From positions 1 to 20,965 of the IMG/VR virus record IMGVR_UViG_3300035661_000367: DNA of 20,965 bases; one strand, written 5' to 3'. Each line of letters starts with the position of its first letter. Position 1 is the stretch's first letter. Shown here piece by piece: positions 5,779 to 20,919 of the stretch. The translations under genes and the position numbers were made by a program. The notes below the pieces were generated by a model. That model saw only the letters and a list, made by a program, of their open reading frames with translations. It had not been told where the DNA came from and ran no database searches. Source of the stretch: a virus.

Positions 5779-6405
5779 TTATTGTAACCCCATTCCTATA
5801 GTAACTTCCTTCATTAATTGTTCAGCTGTTGCATATGGTAACCCCGTTAATTCCATAAAAGACCGCATGTCATTATTTGTTATAGCAGTTCTCATCTTGG
5901 ATGAACTAGCGCCCATCACACCCTTCATATCTTCATCACGCAAAATAGGATTTGTTATATATTGTTCCTCTTCTGCTACTGGATTACCAAAAATACGGGC
6001 GATGTCCTTGCGATAAGATCTATCATCACCAGTAACTTCCCCAACAGGCAATAATTTATGGTCTATTAATGACATTATGGCGTCATACGCATTACTAGCT
6101 ATTTCATATGAAACATTCGGAAATAATTGTCGCAAATAATGTATTCGCCTATTTCCGTCAAGTGGGCTATTTGGTGAACGTTTTTCTGTATCTATAACAA
6201 ACACAATTGCTTTGGCATTCAACCGTGATGATAATGATATCAACTGTTGTATAACCTGGTGATGACCAACATGAGGTGGGTTAAATTTACCTATGGCAAA
6301 TACAACTGGATCGAAACCATATTGTATATAATCACCAATAGTCCACGTTTTTGAGTGAGATATCACTGTGTTATGTTCTGTTATAAATTGGTTAAAACTA
6401 ATCAT
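5779..6405 (-). CDS. HxGH nucleotidyltransferase (NMN adenylyltransferase-like) with capsid-targeting-type leader
   Basis: A 208-residue protein of the nucleotidylyltransferase superfamily. It has GKFNPPHVGHH (39-49) with the HxGH pair H45/H48, TGDDRSYRKDI (125-135), and a C-terminal GASSSKMR (165-172) that corresponds to the ISxTxxR nucleotide-binding motif. Relatives transfer AMP or CMP to a phosphate acceptor such as nicotinamide mononucleotide; the substrate here is unknown. The first ten residues, MISFNQFITE, strongly resemble the leader of T4 internal proteins (MKTYQEFIAE) and end in an IxE motif like those cut by prohead protease gp21. Expression is late: TATAAATA (6428-6435) lies just upstream, and GGGAG lies 8 nt before the ATG. 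It is the first gene of the operon that continues into the tube cap, gp53 and hub genes. The family is clear; packaging into the virion is inferred. Confidence 0.85.
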   Translation of the reverse strand: MISFNQFITEHNTVISHSKTWTIGDYIQYGFDPVVFAIGKFNPPHVGHHQVIQQLISLSSRLNAKAIVFVIDTEKRSPNSPLDGNRRIHYLRQLFPNVSYEIASNAYDAIMSLIDHKLLPVGEVTGDDRSYRKDIARIFGNPVAEEEQYITNPILRDEDMKGVMGASSSKMRTAITNNDMRSFMELTGLPYATAEQLMKEVTIGMGLQ

Positions 6406-6427
6406 TGCACAAACTCCCTATTGCAAC

Positions 6428-6435
6428 TATTTATA
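6428..6435 (-). promoter_or_regulatory. Late promoter (TATAAATA) of the baseplate operon
   Basis: An exact match on the minus strand to the T4 late consensus TATAAATA. The predicted start, about 6 bp downstream, leaves a short leader with GGGAG before the ATG at 6405. The -35 of the divergent gp55 promoter begins only 4 bp away, at 6439. Confidence 0.85.
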
Positions 6436-6438
6436 TAG

Positions 6439-6467
6439 TTGACATAATTGAAAAAATCCTGTATATA
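6439..6467 (+). promoter_or_regulatory. Early sigma70-type promoter of gene 55
   Basis: A perfect TTGACA (6439-6444), a 17-bp spacer and TATATA (6462-6467), followed by gene 55 at 6504. It is divergent from the late promoter at 6428-6435 and nearly touches it. Confidence 0.75.
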
Positions 6468-6503
6468 TACATTACTACAACAATAATAAAAAGGCTACAT
6501 AAT

Positions 6504-7019
6504 ATGATTAAACCTCAACAGACATCAATCGAAAATACGGTAATTCCAAAGAAAAAAAACTATTTAAACAATAAAGATTTATTGGCTGAAGTTGTTAAAA
6601 GTAAAGCACAACAGCAAATGAGTGATAAGTTAGCTTTGATGTTAACAATGTTATGTAAAAAATATGCAAAACGGGGTAATTTTGCCAATTATTCATATAA
6701 TGATGATATGCAGGGGTATGCTATGTTAATGCTGGTTAAAACATGGAATTCGTTCGACCCAGCAAAAAGCAATAATCCATTTGCATTCTTCACACAGTGT
6801 ATAAAGAACAGCTTCATACAATATCTCAATCACGAAAAAACGCAACGGGATATTAAAAATGAAACATTAATTGCGGCTGGAATGAATCCATCGTATGGGT
6901 ATTCATCAACACTCGAGGAACGACATGATTTACTATCTAGTGATGATGTAATAGCACCTACCATCTCCGAAACGATAATATCATCGACCGTTATCGATAC
7001 AGAAATTAGTCCAGTATAA
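6504..7019 (+). CDS. 55: Late-transcription sigma factor gp55-like
   Basis: A 171-residue protein close in length and pattern to T4 gp55 (185). It has NYLNNKDLLAEVVKSK near the N-terminus (T4: YVNNKELL), KKYAKRGNFANYSYNDDMQG then YAMLMLVKTWNSFDPAKSNN with PFAFFTQCIKNSFIQYLNHE (T4: [20 protein letters not shown]). This is a minimal sigma region 2 that directs host RNA polymerase to TATAAATA-type late promoters with the sliding clamp. I chose ATG 6504 because homology starts soon after it and AAGG lies 11 nt upstream; an in-frame ATG at 6405 would place the start upstream of the gene's own promoter. The presence of this sigma and of eight-base late elements across the window is mutually consistent. 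T4 also keeps 55, 47 and 46 near each other. Confidence 0.9.
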   Translation: MIKPQQTSIENTVIPKKKNYLNNKDLLAEVVKSKAQQQMSDKLALMLTMLCKKYAKRGNFANYSYNDDMQGYAMLMLVKTWNSFDPAKSNNPFAFFTQCIKNSFIQYLNHEKTQRDIKNETLIAAGMNPSYGYSSTLEERHDLLSSDDVIAPTISETIISSTVIDTEISPV

Positions 7020-7502: not shown

Positions 7503-8561
7503 TTGGCTAAAAACAATAAAAGCCTGCACAAAGCGGCGTGTATGACTGACATACACTTTGGAAAGAAATCTAACTCAGAACAACATAATCAAGATTGTAT
7601 CGATTTTATTAATTGGTTTTGTGACCACGTCAAACAAGATCCTACTATAGACCATATCGTGTTTCTGGGTGATTGGCACGAAAATAGAAGCTCATTAAAC
7701 ATTTCTACACTAACATATTCTTATAATGGCGCCAAATTGTTGAATGAGTTAGGATTGCCAATATTCTTTATACTGGGTAACCACGATCTATATCATAGGC
7801 ACTCACGTGAGGTGCACTCTTTAGTACACTTTGATGAGTTTGACAACTTCATACTCATTGATGAACCTGTTGTACGGAAAGACATCGGAAATGGTGTTCT
7901 TTTTTCACCATATCTATTCCATCACGAATATCCAAATCTAGCGGAATATCTCAAAATTCCAGTTTGGTTTGGTCATTTTGAATTTAAAGGCTTTGTTATT
8001 ACTGGATATAATTTAACAATGCCGACTGGCCCAGATCCACATGACTATCAAGGCCCAAAACATATTATATCTGGTCATTTTCATAAGCGACAAGCATTTG
8101 GTAATGTCGTATATATGGGTAACACATTCCCTATGGATTTTTCTGATGCCGGTGATAATGAACGTGGGATGATGATATATGATCACGACACCGATATTAT
8201 GGAGTTTGAAAATTGGGAAGATTGCCCAAAATATATAAAGACCAGCTTATCTGCATTGGTAGATAAAAAGGTTGCAATGTTTTCAGGTGCTAGAGTCAAA
8301 TGTACCGCTGATATTAATATAAACTACGATGAAAGTAACATACTACGTCAAGAATTTATAGACCATTACAAACTACGCGAGTTTGTAATGGAAGAGTCCA
8401 TAGAAATCAAAAACATAATATCAGGTACAACCACTCAAGTAGATGTGGATAGTAGCGAGTTAGCTAATATAAACGATGTGGTTATTCAAATGATACAAGA
8501 AATAGATTCTGACCACATCGATAATGCATTATTGATTGATATTTATACTACAATAAAATAA
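7503..8561 (+). CDS. 47: Recombination endonuclease subunit gp47-like (Mre11/SbcD family)
   Basis: A 352-residue metallophosphoesterase with the Mre11/SbcD motifs in order: TDIHFG (D16, H18), FLGDWHENR (D57, H59), LGNHDLY (N93, H94, D95) and SGHFHKR (H192, H194). T4 gp47 is 339 residues. With gp46 it forms the nuclease-ATPase that resects DNA ends for recombination-dependent replication and degrades host DNA. The frame starts with TTG at 7503 preceded by an AAGGGAG site about 10 nt upstream; the next in-frame ATG (7542) lies only two codons before the metal ligand D16 and has no ribosome site, so TTG is preferred. Gene 46 follows after 19 bp with its own ribosome site, a two-gene operon as in T4. 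Confidence 0.93.
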   Translation: MAKNNKSLHKAACMTDIHFGKKSNSEQHNQDCIDFINWFCDHVKQDPTIDHIVFLGDWHENRSSLNISTLTYSYNGAKLLNELGLPIFFILGNHDLYHRHSREVHSLVHFDEFDNFILIDEPVVRKDIGNGVLFSPYLFHHEYPNLAEYLKIPVWFGHFEFKGFVITGYNLTMPTGPDPHDYQGPKHIISGHFHKRQAFGNVVYMGNTFPMDFSDAGDNERGMMIYDHDTDIMEFENWEDCPKYIKTSLSALVDKKVAMFSGARVKCTADININYDESNILRQEFIDHYKLREFVMEESIEIKNIISGTTTQVDVDSSELANINDVVIQMIQEIDSDHIDNALLIDIYTTIK

Positions 8562-8580: not shown

Positions 8581-10377
8581 ATGATCAATTTTATATCACT
8601 ATCATTAAGAAATTTTATGAGTTATGGAAACAATACAACAATTGTAGATTTCAATAATACTGGGACTACATTAATCATTGGTGAAGATTTAGATAATACA
8701 ACTAATGGTCAAGGAGGAAATGGAGTGGGTAAAACAAGCATTATGAATGCTTTAACTTTTGCGGTATACGATAGACCCATTTCAAAAATCAAAGCAGATG
8801 AATTAGTTAATAACATTAACAAAAAACACATGGAAGTATCAGTCACATTTAAAAAAGGCGATTGGTTTTACAAAATTGTTAGAGCTCGTAAAATGAAAGC
8901 TGGTGCTGCTGGAAATTATGTAAAGTTATATGAGCGGTATGGAGATGCAGATTTTGATAATTCAGATGAGAAGACTCTTGATAGTATAATTAATACTGAC
9001 AAGCGGATAGAAGATATCATGGGTATGACATACGATATGTTTGTTCGTATTGTTGTTATATCAGCAAATCATACACCATTTTTAGATTTGCCGGTGAGTC
9101 ACCCAACACAAGCAAATCAAACTGATTTCGTAGAGCGGCTGTTCGATTTAGTAATATTGTCAGAAAAAGCTGCAGTATTAAAGGATTCTATCAAGGCCAC
9201 AGAAGAAACCTTAAAGATCAGCAAATTGAAAATGGAACATTTGGGTAAAGAGTCACAACGGTTGGCAGAGCAGATTAAATCTGCTAAAACTCGTGTTATT
9301 AATTGGGAACGTAATAATGAAGATACAATTGCATCACTAGAGATGAAACTAGCCGCTATTGCTGGTGTAGATTTTGATAATGAGCGTAGGTTGCATGATG
9401 AGTTGGAATTACTAGATGCAGAAGTAACTTCAATAATAAATAAGCAACACGATCTAGAAAAAAGCATCAAACAATATTCCAAAATCAAACAAGATATGGA
9501 ACGCGATTTACTACATCTAAACGACGATAGATGTCCATACTGTTTACAGCAATACCAACATGCTGAGAGTAAAATTTCCGAATGTGAATCTAGTTTATTA
9601 ATAGCTCAGACTAAATTAAATTCATATACAGCAGAATTAGTTAATATCGATGCGATTGCTGTGACAAAAATAGAGGATAAATTACGTATCAAAAAACAAA
9701 TAACTGTTACTAATCTGGAAGAGTTAGTTGACATACGCAATCAGAGTAATGTAATACGAGAGAAAATTGAAGATCTTAAAAATGCTACTAACCCATTTAT
9801 AGAACCATTAGAAGAATTAGAGGGAATAGTTATTGAGGAAGTTAATTACGACGAAATAAATCGATTGGTTAAATACATTGACCATCAACAATTTTTAGTA
9901 AAATTGTTGACTAAAAAAGATAGTTTTGTACGGAAAGCATTTTTGAATAAGAATCTACCATTTCTAAATAATAGATTACAGTTGTATTTGTCTCAATTAG
10001 GATTAACCCATAAAGTCGAATTCAATCATGAGATGACGGCAGAAATTACACAATTTGGACGCTCATTAGGGTTTGGAAATTTATCAAACGGTCAACGAGC
10101 CCGAGTTAACATTGCGCTGTCTATGGCATTTCGGGATGTGTTACAGAAATTACACACACCAATCAATATATGTTTACTCGATGAAGTGTTGGATGTGGGT
10201 TTGGATCCTGTCGGAGTTCAATCTGCAGCTAGAATGCTCAAACGAAAGGCCCGTGATGAACAACTGTGTATGTTTATTGTATCACACAGGGATGAAGTAG
10301 AATCATCTTTTGATAGGACGATGGTTGTACAGATGATCAAAGGATTCTCATACATCAAGGATGCTATTATGGAATAA
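8581..10377 (+). CDS. 46: Recombination endonuclease ATPase subunit gp46-like (Rad50/SbcC family)
   Basis: A 598-residue SMC-like ATPase (T4 gp46 is 560). Walker A GGNGVGKTS covers residues 45-53. Coiled-coil arms rich in E, K and L flank a zinc hook, CPYC, at 318-321. The ABC signature LSNGQ is at 501-505, Walker B ICLLDE ends at D534/E535, and the H-loop VSHRDE follows near 560. The protein pairs with gp47 and controls its access to DNA ends by ATP-driven opening. TAGGGAA precedes the ATG. All catalytic motifs look intact. The stop codon forms the base of the large hairpin that precedes the next gene, so early transcripts of 47-46 run into that structure. Confidence 0.95.
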   Translation: MINFISLSLRNFMSYGNNTTIVDFNNTGTTLIIGEDLDNTTNGQGGNGVGKTSIMNALTFAVYDRPISKIKADELVNNINKKHMEVSVTFKKGDWFYKIVRARKMKAGAAGNYVKLYERYGDADFDNSDEKTLDSIINTDKRIEDIMGMTYDMFVRIVVISANHTPFLDLPVSHPTQANQTDFVERLFDLVILSEKAAVLKDSIKATEETLKISKLKMEHLGKESQRLAEQIKSAKTRVINWERNNEDTIASLEMKLAAIAGVDFDNERRLHDELELLDAEVTSIINKQHDLEKSIKQYSKIKQDMERDLLHLNDDRCPYCLQQYQHAESKISECESSLLIAQTKLNSYTAELVNIDAIAVTKIEDKLRIKKQITVTNLEELVDIRNQSNVIREKIEDLKNATNPFIEPLEELEGIVIEEVNYDEINRLVKYIDHQQFLVKLLTKKDSFVRKAFLNKNLPFLNNRLQLYLSQLGLTHKVEFNHEMTAEITQFGRSLGFGNLSNGQRARVNIALSMAFRDVLQKLHTPINICLLDEVLDVGLDPVGVQSAARMLKRKARDEQLCMFIVSHRDEVESSFDRTMVVQMIKGFSYIKDAIME

Positions 10378-10433
10378 TTAAATCCCCTTCAATTTTCAGC
10401 CCATAAATATCTGAAAATTGAAGGGGATTTAAT
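10377..10433 (+). promoter_or_regulatory. 23-bp perfect hairpin sequestering the resolvase ribosome site and start codon
   Basis: Bases 10377-10399 are the exact reverse complement of 10411-10433, around an 11-nt loop (10400-10410). The 3' arm contains the only Shine-Dalgarno sequence of the next gene (GAAGGGG, 10420-10426) and the first two bases of its ATG (10432). In a transcript coming from gene 46 the site would be buried. The loop holds the late element CATAAATA (10402-10409); a transcript begun there would start in the 3' arm and lack the 5' arm, freeing the site. T4 genes e, soc and 49 are controlled in this way. A T5 run at 10438-10442 might also let the hairpin act as a partial terminator. 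Confidence 0.85.
10402..10409 (+). promoter_or_regulatory. Late promoter element (CATAAATA) in the hairpin loop
   Basis: One mismatch from TATAAATA. The same octamer precedes two other plus-strand genes in this window (10906 and 18755), supporting its use as a late promoter in this phage. The expected start is near 10415, giving a leader of about 17 nt that still contains GAAGGGG. Confidence 0.7.
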
Positions 10434-10914
10434 GAAATTTTTGGGGATAGACCAATCTTATAGTGGCACAGGCGTAGTAATAATTGAAGGTGATACGGTT
10501 ATCAGTTTTGATAAATTCACTAGTGATAAATCGAAGGATATATTCGAAAGGTGTTGGGATGTAGTATCCCAAATTAGACAATATATCAAAGACCACAATC
10601 CAAATTATGTGGCAATAGAGGGATTAGCATTTGGAATGACAGGCAATGCTACGAGAGATTTGGCAGGGTTACAGTTTTCTATAATAACTACAGCTAAATA
10701 TATAGATGGTGTGGATATTGATATTATAACGCCATTATCATTAAAAAAATTCGCGACAGGAAATGGAAAAGCTAAAAAGGACGATATGATGGCAGCTATA
10801 CCAGCCAATGTATTAGATATGTTCAAAGCTCGTGGATACAAAAAAACAACTGGGTTAGCTGATTTGACAGATGCTTATTTTCTTGCCAAATTTATTCAAC
10901 ATAACCATAAATAA
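10432..10914 (+). CDS. RuvC-like Holliday junction resolvase
   Basis: A 160-residue protein of the RNase H-like RuvC superfamily. GIDQSYSGTG puts the first metal ligand at D7, VAIEGLAFG at E63, and the C-terminal GLADLTDAYFLA supplies D144/D147. ITPLSLKKFATGNGKAKKDD resembles the TP...VKK...G.G.A.K segment of RuvC. It would cut four-way junctions and branched DNA during recombination and before packaging. In T4 this work is done by gp49 (endonuclease VII), which has a different fold, so this looks like a non-homologous replacement. It follows gene 46 and is preceded by the hairpin/late promoter device at 10377-10433. The start ATG 10432 is fixed by the motif at residue 7 and by GAAGGGG at 5 nt spacing. 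Confidence 0.88.
   Translation: MKFLGIDQSYSGTGVVIIEGDTVISFDKFTSDKSKDIFERCWDVVSQIRQYIKDHNPNYVAIEGLAFGMTGNATRDLAGLQFSIITTAKYIDGVDIDIITPLSLKKFATGNGKAKKDDMMAAIPANVLDMFKARGYKKTTGLADLTDAYFLAKFIQHNHK
10906..10913 (+). promoter_or_regulatory. Late promoter element (CATAAATA) of the acidic protein gene
   Basis: CATAAATA overlaps the last codons of the resolvase gene (His, Lys, stop). About 24 bp downstream lie AGGAG and the ATG at 10938, so the gene can be read late on its own. Confidence 0.7.
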
Positions 10915-12932: not shown

Positions 12933-14525
12933 ATGTCGAGTGAAATTTTAAAATACTGGCCCATTGAAAGTCCGCCACGAGAAAATCAGATAAAGGCGTT
13001 GCAATGGTTAGAAAAACAAACCGCAAAATATGTTATCTGCCAGGCCCCGGTTGGAGTTGGTAAGTCATTAATAGGGATAACATTTTCTCGTTATGTTGAC
13101 AGGGGTAGAGGGGATTCTTTTGTATTAACACCGCAAATTGTATTACAACACCAATACGAACAATCATTTGATAGTAATGTTGTGTCATCATTGTACGGAA
13201 AGGGAAATTATAAGTGCGAAAAACGTAATACTACATGTGACGTTGGTAGTTTAGTCAAACCAAAATGTGATAGCTGTCCGGCTGTTGCTGCCCGAAATAG
13301 AGCTAAAAACTCACCAAACGTAGTGATGAATTATAAGCTAGCTATGCTCAATTTCGTATTCACTCAAACATTCAGAAAGCGCAAATTATTAATTATGGAT
13401 GAGTGTCATAATACAGAAAACGAGTTGACTGAGTTTGATGCTGTTCAAATTTTTGCAAAGAAGTGTGAACGTGAAAATATTCCTTGGAAGTCCCATGCAG
13501 ATATAATTAGTGCTATAGATTGGGTTAAATCAAAATACCTACCTGTAATGGATAAGAAATTACAGGAGTTGATGAATGAATGTGAGGACCTTATTGATAA
13601 GGGTACCAACTATGATAGGCATGTGCTACCTACCGAAATAACCAAATTACGCGAAATGAAAGCATTGATAAGTCATATAGATGGGTTGAATGATATAATT
13701 GAGGAAGGTGATGCCGAAATAATAAAAAATTGGTGTTTGGTATCTGATAAACAAACCATACGGTTTAAACGACTGTTTGGTGCTCATAGTTTTAAATATA
13801 TCATAGAGCCAATGGCAGAGCGGTTTTTGTTCATGTCTGCAACCATAGTAAACCCAGATAGTTTTTGTAGAGATTTGGGTATAAATCCAAATGATGCGGC
13901 CTTTTATTCACTAGATTCGGATTTTCCAGCAGAAAACCGTCCTGTAATATACATGCCACAAATGAAAATGAATGTAAATTGGAACAGCGACGAAAATTAC
14001 ACCAATCGTAAAGATATGATTAACTCTATTAAAAAGTTGATGGGAGTACATAAAGACCAATCTGGTATTATACACACAGGTAATTTCGCAATAGCAAAAT
14101 GGTTAATAGAAGAATTAGAAGATAAAATTCCACATGAAATTTATCACCACAATCCAGATAGTGGTGATAACAGGAACCAAATCATTCAAGTCTTTCAATC
14201 AACAAAAAAACCTGCAGTATTGATATCGCCTAGTATAACAGAAGGATTGGATTTAATAGATGATTTGGCACGATTTGCTATTATAGTTAAAACCCCTTAT
14301 AAAAATATTGGGGATCAATGGGTTAAAGCACGCATGGAATTATCATCTGAGTGGTACCAAAGACAGGCTATAATTGATGTTATCCAAGGTTGTGGGCGAA
14401 TTGTGCGATCAAAAGATGATTGGGGTAATGTTTACATATTGGATCAATCCTGGGGATATCTATATGAAAAGACAAAGGGTATGATACCTCAGTGGTGGAA
14501 GGATGCATATCACGTTATTAATTAA
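12933..14525 (+). CDS. DinG/XPD-like superfamily 2 helicase with Fe-S cysteines
   Basis: A 530-residue SF2 helicase. Walker A QAPVGVGKS is at 37-45, a DECH box at 156-159, motif III-like FMSATI near 298-303, a SPSITEGLDL motif near 430, and motif VI QGCGRIVRS followed by DWGNVYILDQSW near the C-terminus. Between motifs I and II four cysteines (C95, C102, C112, C115) are spaced like the 4Fe-4S ligands of XPD, DinG and Rad3. Such enzymes unwind DNA 5' to 3' and can remove R-loops or D-loops. T4's own helicases (gp41, Dda, UvsW) lack this cluster. GAGG precedes the ATG. The gene is early-type and ends in a strong bidirectional terminator. At 530 residues it is shorter than E. coli DinG (716), consistent with a compact phage form. 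The exact substrate is unknown. Confidence 0.9.
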   Translation: MSSEILKYWPIESPPRENQIKALQWLEKQTAKYVICQAPVGVGKSLIGITFSRYVDRGRGDSFVLTPQIVLQHQYEQSFDSNVVSSLYGKGNYKCEKRNTTCDVGSLVKPKCDSCPAVAARNRAKNSPNVVMNYKLAMLNFVFTQTFRKRKLLIMDECHNTENELTEFDAVQIFAKKCERENIPWKSHADIISAIDWVKSKYLPVMDKKLQELMNECEDLIDKGTNYDRHVLPTEITKLREMKALISHIDGLNDIIEEGDAEIIKNWCLVSDKQTIRFKRLFGAHSFKYIIEPMAERFLFMSATIVNPDSFCRDLGINPNDAAFYSLDSDFPAENRPVIYMPQMKMNVNWNSDENYTNRKDMINSIKKLMGVHKDQSGIIHTGNFAIAKWLIEELEDKIPHEIYHHNPDSGDNRNQIIQVFQSTKKPAVLISPSITEGLDLIDDLARFAIIVKTPYKNIGDQWVKARMELSSEWYQRQAIIDVIQGCGRIVRSKDDWGNVYILDQSWGYLYEKTKGMIPQWWKDAYHVIN

Positions 14526-14554
14526 AAATGGCCCAGGGACTGGGCCATTTTTAA
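14522..14554. terminator. Bidirectional terminator between convergent genes
   Basis: A 15-bp perfect stem (14522-14536 with 14540-14554, loop GGA) with a GC-rich core and A5/T5 flanks gives a U-run in both directions. The helicase stop codon and the stop codon of the frameshift extension of the gp26-like gene both lie within it. Confidence 0.92.
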
Positions 14555-14781
14555 TATACTGGATGAGGATTTTTTGATTCTATTTTGAACCGTTCATCTA
14601 AAAAATCTGATATTAATTGTCGCTCTGCATACGACATGTTCATCACTTCAGTGTACGACATAGATCCTCGCATAAAATAAGTTAATGATATAACAGATTT
14701 TAGTACAGCTTCTGCTTCGACATTCAGCTGTTTAAACAGTGATCGTATGGCTACGTTGTCCCCACTACGGAGGACTGAGTA
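14551..14781 (-). CDS. -1 frame extension of the gp26-like protein (gp51-like?), reached by frameshift
   Basis: In the -1 frame relative to the gp26-like gene, 76 codons run from 14781 to a TAA at 14551. The product reads YSVLRSGDNVAIRSLFKQLN, then an EAEAVLKSVISLTYFMRGSM helix, SYAERQLISDFLDERFKIES and a PHPVY end. It looks like a real helical domain, and the YFMRG...ER..I..F...R...E.K...PVY pattern recalls small baseplate-hub assembly proteins of T4 relatives. There is no ATG, GTG or TTG in this frame before the methionine in YFMRG, so independent initiation would lose the first half. The slippery heptamer at 14781-14787 would join it to residues 1-266 of the upstream frame. Expected fusion: 342 residues. 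An A/T-run sequencing error would produce the same picture and must be excluded. Confidence 0.6.
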   Translation of the reverse strand, partial: YSVLRSGDNVAIRSLFKQLNVEAEAVLKSVISLTYFMRGSMSYTEVMNMSYAERQLISDFLDERFKIESKNPHPVY

Positions 14782-18476: not shown

Positions 18477-18817
18477 TATTTGGGTATGTAATTTTTATAT
18501 ACAAACGAACGATACAATACTAAACTTAGTGATATTTAATTTATTTGTTGCGTTTTGTGCTATTAACCAACTCAGATCAGCCAAACGTTGCAAACTCTGC
18601 TGGGATATGTGGCGGCACATGTAGTGTTATTAAGGTGGTTGTTGGAATGCGTGTGATACTATTATGAATTTGTATATAGGAGAGGTTGCTGCTATTCGTG
18701 CATGACTTCTGTATACCTCTATTAATTGTTGTTGGGTTATCATAATTATAATTCCATAAATAAAATATATTATTGGTTACGAATACTTGTAACATCTACA
18801 CAAGAAAGATTTACTCC
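18477..18817. other. 341-bp intergenic region between tape-measure and portal genes
   Basis: No convincing gene is visible. On the minus strand, a 37-codon frame from ATG 18743 to 18630 reads MITQQQLIEVYRSHARIAAT then SPIYKFIIVSHAFQQPP. After it, a second frame continues TTTLITLHVPPHIPAEFATF (ending at 18577). Together these look like one small gene broken by a frameshift, but I recognise no family. The ribosome site is weak. On the plus strand only the late element at 18755 and the portal leader are seen. Confidence 0.4.
18755..18762 (+). promoter_or_regulatory. Late promoter element (CATAAATA) of the portal gene
   Basis: CATAAATA, 55 bp before the portal ATG at 18818. The same variant is used before the resolvase and acidic protein genes. 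Confidence 0.7.
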
Positions 18818-20613: not shown

Positions 20614-20919
20614 ATGAAAGAACAATTACGTAGTATGCTTAATGCAATTATTAACGGCAATGCGGAACAAGCACAAGTGGATTTTCACGAGTATGTCACT
20701 CTGAAAACGCGTGCTATCATCAATGAAGACGAAGATGAAGATGAAGATGAAGATGAAGATAAGAAAAAATCCAAGAAAATCATGAAACGCGAAGATGAAG
20801 ATGAAGATGAATTGGAAGATGAAGATGATGAAGATGAAGATGAAGATGAAGATGAAGATGAAGATGAAGATGAAGATGATAAGAAAAAATCCAAGAAATA
20901 CGATGATGAAGACAAATAA
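20614..20919 (+). CDS. 67: Prohead core protein gp67-like, extremely acidic
   Basis: A 101-residue protein. Residues 1-37 form a helix, MKEQLRSMLNAIINGNAEQA then QVDFHEYVTLKTRAII, matching the small N-terminal domain of prohead core proteins of the gp67 type. The rest is a run of Glu-Asp repeats broken by two copies of KKKSKK, one internal and one near the C-terminus. In T4, gp67 (about 80 residues, acidic) is a scaffold component that is cut into small peptides by gp21 and partly stays in the head. AAGGAG lies before the ATG. Position directly after gene 20 supports the call. The charge pattern could mimic or neutralise DNA inside the prohead. Confidence 0.8.
   Translation: MKEQLRSMLNAIINGNAEQAQVDFHEYVTLKTRAIINEDEDEDEDEDEDKKKSKKIMKREDEDEDELEDEDDEDEDEDEDEDEDEDEDDKKKSKKYDDEDK
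20728..20880 (+). repeat. Hexanucleotide (GAAGAT)n tracts in gene 67
   Basis: Two runs of GAAGAT-type hexamers (about 20728-20760 and 20791-20880) encode alternating Glu-Asp and are separated by a KKKSKK-encoding block that recurs at about 20881. Such tracts readily change length by slippage. Confidence 0.85.

Follow-up and report, generated by a model that had tools for sequence, protein, structure and literature searches.

What is a long perfect hairpin doing over the start of a viral recombination gene, with a candidate late promoter in its loop? The question is raised by a 20,965-base IMG/VR virus fragment (the whole of which we call the window), where a ruvC-like gene follows genes 47 and 46. 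A sequence-only reading of this DNA had proposed that the hairpin silences the resolvase gene on early transcripts and that late transcripts escape the block. Our analysis leads us to a similar view: the hairpin is very probably a timing switch, with ruvC masked on early read-through RNA and switched on by a late promoter in the loop.

The hairpin and the start of ruvC

The genes concerned are the following.

6405 to 7019, plus strand: late sigma factor, gp55-like (phrog_234, 4e-29; phrog_12791, 6e-23)
7503 to 8561, plus strand: gene 47-like (SbcD-like) nuclease subunit, early operon (phrog_100, 1e-54; PF00149)
8581 to 10377, plus strand: gene 46-like (SbcC-like) nuclease subunit (phrog_77, 6e-95)
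10432 to 10914, plus strand: ruvC-like Holliday-junction resolvase of 160 aa (PF02075, 4e-9, over cut-off; phrog_159, 2e-33)

The order 47-46-ruvC on one strand, with a gap of 54 nt before ruvC, places the resolvase gene downstream of early genes. Its product belongs to the RuvC family both by family match and by its four acidic catalytic residues, D7, E63, D144 and D147, which are invariant in 12 aligned sequences (alignment A3). PF02075 is its sole match, and the endonuclease VII (gp49) family domain PF02945 is not found in it. Judged by its portal and further structural genes, the virus is a T4-like myovirus remote from all named phages, with portal identities of 50% to XacN1 and 46% to Stenotrophomonas CM1/RAS14; in the annotation of XacN1 and RAS14, the nearest named phages by portal, there is no ruvC after gene 46.

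Sequence inspection, folding and an inverted-repeat search define the parts of the hairpin.

10377 to 10399, plus strand: 5' arm, ATTAAATCCCCTTCAATTTTCAG
10400 to 10410, plus strand: 11-nt loop, CCCATAAATAT
10402 to 10409, plus strand: late-promoter octamer CATAAATA in the loop (motif search, placement statistics, late orthologs of three relatives)
10411 to 10433, plus strand: 3' arm, with the Shine-Dalgarno AAGGGG (10421-10426) and the AT of the ATG at 10432-10434
10415, plus strand: predicted late transcription start (octamer end + 6), within the first bases of the 3' arm

The arms are complementary at 23 of 23 positions and lie 11 nt apart, and the earlier description of a 23-bp perfect stem, with the Shine-Dalgarno and the AT of the start codon in its 3' arm and the octamer in an 11-nt loop, is confirmed in its coordinates. 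The first base of the 5' arm is the last base of the gene 46 TAA stop. This is the longest perfect inverted repeat of the window and the only such structure there. As RNA (10350-10480) the region has a minimum free energy of -44.2 kcal/mol (z -5.4), and none of 200 dinucleotide shuffles folds as well; the ribosome-binding site and start codon of ruvC lie in one strand of a stable helix. A search against Rfam gave nothing over the gathering score, only sub-threshold matches to generic hairpins. Elsewhere in the window, a perfect 16-bp inverted repeat with a 3-nt loop lies between convergent genes at the helicase stop (14521-14555) and is probably a two-way terminator.

Masking was expressed as the cost of opening the region from -15 to +2 in RNA carrying 60 nt upstream of the predicted +1, compared with RNA starting at +1, folding being calculated at 37 C for RNA by itself, with no ribosomes present. 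For the window ruvC, opening costs 25.0 kcal/mol in the long RNA versus 2.5 in RNA from the predicted late start, a difference (ddG) of 22.5 that was reached by none of 1000 shuffles of the upstream part. The remaining octamers of the window, which serve as internal controls, show no hairpin effect (ddG -0.4 to 2.4). Put through the same test, the positive controls I-TevII and T4 gene 49 give 12.6 and 12.7. Gene 49, put forward earlier as the precedent, scores in the same way as the window ruvC. The two octamers of T4 soc give 4.0 and 6.1.

That the hairpin is a chance or otherwise non-regulatory repeat, such as an insertion footprint or a repeat element, we consider scarcely credible. Octamer counts per se are at chance level in the window, as that explanation would have it, and are uninformative by themselves. 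Against it stand the occurrence of the hairpin sequence as a single copy in the 20,965-base contig, the outcome of the 1000 shuffles, and the recurrence of the arrangement, with unrelated arms, in many relatives (see below).

The octamer as a candidate late promoter

Placement of the octamer is informative. Of the seven YATAAATA sites, five precede a correctly oriented start codon by 13-60 nt, versus 12 of 140 for permuted octamers (P ~8e-5), and a sixth precedes the portal start by 63 nt. Three octamers without a hairpin, listed here, are the internal controls.

6428 to 6435, minus strand: TATAAATA, before the minus-strand late cluster starting at 6405
10906 to 10913, plus strand: a further CATAAATA, candidate late promoter for the gene that follows (ATG 10938)
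18755 to 18762, plus strand: CATAAATA, before the portal gene gp20 (likely ATG 18818)

In three large relatives, TAAATA is enriched on the sense strand upstream of genes (e.g. 60 versus 11 and 46 versus 12). In the same three, nnTAAATA is mostly found just upstream of the orthologs of gp20, gp26, gp53 and gp25 and is not close upstream of gene 46 or the helicase; gene 47 has a late octamer upstream in one of these genomes (G008) and none in the other two. With its presence at late genes and its absence from most of the early ones (46, 47 and the helicase), nnTAAATA has the distribution expected of a late promoter in these phages. The virus also encodes a candidate reader, since the gp55-like sigma factor, whose true start is probably ATG 6504, would read the octamer. 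The T4 late octamer occupies -13 to -6 (PMC2988020), from which our predicted +1, octamer end + 6, is taken. Late RNA beginning at 10415 would lack the entire 5' arm: the octamer is so placed that initiation from it would remove one strand of the helix. Near the end of the window, ORF 20614 carries a long acidic Asp-Glu repeat at its 3' end (20685-20919), with AATAAATA ahead of it.

Assembled in this way, the elements would act as follows. Early or middle RNA reading through from 47 and 46 would carry both arms and fold, and the folded RNA would hide the ribosome-binding site and start codon of ruvC. After replication begins, RNA polymerase together with the gp55-like late sigma factor and the sliding clamp would start at the loop octamer, and the transcript from about 10415, having no 5' arm, would not fold and would be translated from the AAGGGG site. 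RuvC would then appear only late in infection, at the stage when replicating DNA is branched and has to be cut before it can be packaged; a junction nuclease made too early would be expected to harm replication. It is well established for T4 that resolvases act on DNA that is branched and still replicating, ahead of its packaging. In this scheme read-through from gene 46 into ruvC is assumed, and we infer late initiation at 10415, the translational silence of the early RNA and the benefit to the phage.

Recurrence and loss of the layout in relatives

A DNA-level search among named phages returned no relatives, nor did a scan of viral contigs with the single RuvC protein. Relatives were therefore gathered via profiles, from a two-sequence alignment (A1) and then from A3, giving 68 ruvC loci, 66 of them viral from the profile scans and two from genome bins. 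RuvC matches in Vequintavirinae (Escherichia A5-4 and Serratia ChuuTotoro) were set aside because their neighbouring genes differ. In the T4-like loci, ruvC usually lies directly after gene 46 or behind a few small genes that follow it. As a side observation, gene 46 is apparently split by an intein-like insert in its ATPase region in L004 (4771-7614) and L005 (at the 3' end), and L005 has a further insert in its gp55-like ORF.

The sequence-only reading had held that loss of both stem and octamer in close relatives would count against it; over the 68 loci the layout instead recurs, with unrelated sequences. Sequestration of the ribosome-binding site is reached by a fraction of at most 0.01 of shuffles in 17 of 32 octamer-bearing, leader-type ruvC loci, although near-duplicates among the 32 (e.g. 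L047/L049 and L021/L024/L034) reduce the independent hairpin lineages to roughly a dozen. The median ddG is 9.9 in 31 leader-type loci versus 2.2 in 191 octamer-start pairs from three genomes (P 8e-11). In loci of the hairpin class, a label assigned after inspection of the data, the predicted +1 is found in the stretch separating the two arms or at an arm's edge. The octamer is in the loop in the window, L019, L027, L051, L057, L065 and L073, and is in or abuts the 5' arm in L024, L046, L047, L052, L075 and T4 gene 49. The nearest RuvC relative, L019, shares 52% identity, sits beside the window in the RuvC tree and has the hairpin; no closer relative (>55%) was found among the ruvC loci.

The arms are unrelated between most loci (ATTAAATCCCCTTCAATTTTCAG in the window, GCATCCTATATAAA in L024, ACCTCC in L046 and TACCCCC in L075), and those of L019 and L051 are different again. 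In MAFFT alignments of the few junctions that could be aligned, arms were either nearly identical or not alignable; covariation was therefore dropped in favour of shuffle tests on each locus. Since the geometry is constant although almost every lineage has arms of its own, the comparison is strong evidence for function. The layout before ruvC is almost certainly, to judge from its sequence and its conservation, a real regulatory device, and its interpretation as a late switch is well supported by the comparison.

A natural control is offered by L025 and L038, where ruvC follows a divergently transcribed gene, so that there is no read-through. The octamer is kept in both (TATAAATA and CATAAATA), and a hairpin effect is absent from both (z -0.5 and 0.0); the two are sisters and represent a single evolutionary event. 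The layout also varies among other loci. Of those linked to gene 46, L056, L063 and L066 lack a clear hairpin or octamer, and in L045 an octamer is present with masking that is not significant. In L022, within the 700 bases before ruvC, a GIY-YIG-like ORF directly abuts the start of ruvC, and the octamer/hairpin layout is lost.

One cultured phage has the same layout. Alishewanella phage Slicko01 (OQ508956) shows the synteny 47-46-ruvC-..-portal, and its sequence GGTAAATATCTTCAAAGAGAGGATATTATG combines an octamer, a stem masking GAGG and a predicted +1 in the loop. Its hairpin, AATATCTTC-AAAGA-GAGGATATT-ATG, is shorter than that of the window, and with a ddG of 7.4 and a shuffle fraction of 0.056 it makes a weaker case. 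Being cultured, with the same synteny, Slicko01 makes the questions of the hairpin and of leaderless mRNA (below) testable.

In Slicko01 a second, distinct hairpin that resembles a terminator stands between 46 and the octamer, which bears on another explanation: that the hairpin is mainly a terminator of gene 46 or a stabiliser of its mRNA 3' end, behind which the late promoter restarts transcription, masking being a by-product. This would likewise leave ruvC off early and on late, and in L046, L071 and L073 a T run directly follows the hairpin, as in intrinsic terminators. The window stem, however, is followed by GAAATTTTT, with no direct T run, and across loci the 3' arm tracks the Shine-Dalgarno and start codon and not a T run. 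A terminator scan reported none between 46 and ruvC, its 8-nt loop limit excluding this hairpin from consideration. We therefore think a main role in termination improbable; the T runs of L046, L071 and L073 suggest that termination has been added there.

Two further explanations are weighed by the same comparison. The 23-bp palindrome could act as DNA, extruding a cruciform recognised by RuvC or by the 46/47 (SbcCD-like) nuclease in an autoregulatory loop, and a perfect palindrome does sit between the gene of a palindrome nuclease and that of a junction resolvase. Yet in many relatives the stems are short or imperfect while the ribosome-binding site is masked and +1 lies between the arms, and the same device is found on homing endonucleases and T4 gene 49, where no cruciform is needed; we regard this possibility as very unlikely. 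Alternatively, the hairpin could be the operator of an RNA-binding repressor, RegA-like or gp43-like, instead of a passive mask, for which there is a precedent in T4 gp43, whose operator is a hairpin close to the start of its own gene (PMC3014915). A sequence-specific RNA binder would hardly tolerate arms and loops that, apart from the octamer, are unrelated from one locus to the next, and the role of the octamer on the DNA strand accounts for the sole shared letters, so that we give a repressor very little credence.

A possible leaderless second form

At 13 ruvC loci the predicted +1 falls within -3 to +1 of the ATG (in nine of them exactly at its A), and the octamer stands exactly, or nearly, 5 nt before the ATG. 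Genes with an octamer in that position would, if the predicted start is right, make leaderless late mRNA. The spacing is a sharp genome-wide spike: spacing 0 is found for 13 genes in G003 and 12 in G014, and neighbouring spacings for 0-3 (the two records comprise pieces L087-L105 and L118-L132). Several of these spacing-0 genes are homing endonucleases. Anti-Shine-Dalgarno pairing of positions -20 to -4 has a median of +0.5 kcal/mol in the leaderless class versus -6.6 in the hairpin class, the absence of a Shine-Dalgarno in the former being partly forced because the octamer occupies its place. The opening-energy test is unsuited to this class, where little RNA remains to mask.

The two predicted forms occur within the same families. 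A GIY-YIG family has the hairpin in G003 and the leaderless form in G014 (33% identity), an HNH family does likewise (39% identity), and phrog_11975 has the hairpin in G008 and is leaderless in G003 and G014. On the ruvC tree, the hairpin and leaderless labels need at least five changes. We see an even chance that, in a large and partly jumbo T4-like group, genes that have to stay silent on early read-through RNA use two interchangeable late-promoter switches. In one, a hairpin would mask a strong Shine-Dalgarno and be opened by initiation inside it; in the other there would be no Shine-Dalgarno, the octamer would stand 5 nt before the ATG, and only the leaderless late transcript would be translatable. 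On this reading ruvC, GIY-YIG and HNH homing endonucleases and phrog_11975 would each have the hairpin in some phages and be leaderless in others. Leaderless late mRNA, which seems to have taken the place of the hairpin, would then be a second and simpler way of tying translation to promoter choice.

Other genes with a hairpin at a late promoter include HNH/GIY-YIG endonuclease genes of G003 (L087:5214-5642, L090:11644-12264 and L088:1514-2149). A gene of unknown family on the minus strand (L125:4292-5137) has a long stem around TTGTTGTCC / GGACAACAA and, with a ddG of 17.4, exceeds every other hairpin switch in its genome.

Comparison with known systems

As far as we have checked, the mechanism is of a known kind, and what is new is the gene, the recurrence and the leaderless alternative; a literature search found neither a leaderless T4-like late mRNA nor a hairpin-controlled phage ruvC, which is not proof of absence. 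That ruvC is silent early, that its late mRNA has the predicted 5' end and that this mRNA is translated late are things that we infer, as did the sequence-only reading.

For T4 e and soc, early read-through RNA masks the ribosome-binding site, and late promoters at the structure yield translated mRNA; such a structure cuts T4 lysozyme synthesis about 100-fold (PMC3014915). These genes differ from the window in their products, for lysis (e, lysozyme) and the capsid (soc), and the e promoters, unlike that of the window, sit within the DNA that specifies the 5' half of the helix. I-TevI, I-TevII, I-TevIII, segB and Aeh1 mobE are late genes inside early or middle transcripts, with a hairpin over the ribosome-binding site and a late promoter there (PMC2988022). 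Homing endonucleases are mobile genes, whereas the window ruvC is a housekeeping gene of recombination whose position behind 46 is conserved. Late promoters of Aeromonas phage Aeh1 read a/gCTAAATA, the first two octamer letters varying (PMC2988020) as they do in nnTAAATA here; unlike the present octamers, they have no link to ruvC.

A parallel in function is T4 gene 49 (endonuclease VII), for which inhibitory structure in the initiation region has been cited (PMC3014915). Like the window gene it encodes a junction resolvase. Its Shine-Dalgarno and ATG belong to the 3' arm or directly adjoin it, its octamer (AATAAATA) lies within the 5' arm or beside it, and the predicted +1 is near the loop. 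It differs in its neighbouring genes, its shorter stem, an additional internal start and the unrelated fold of its product. Among the relatives, PF02945 exceeds its cut-off in two of 17 viral records with ruvC, many of which are fragments, and diverged endoVII-like HNH proteins are present in G003, G008 and G014. The earlier proposal that the same control sits on an unrelated resolvase fold holds, with a RuvC domain (PF02075) in the window and Endonuclease_7 in T4. If the switch works as proposed, late-only control would be tied to the job and not to the enzyme, RuvC and T4 endonuclease VII being resolvases of unrelated folds under the same switch.
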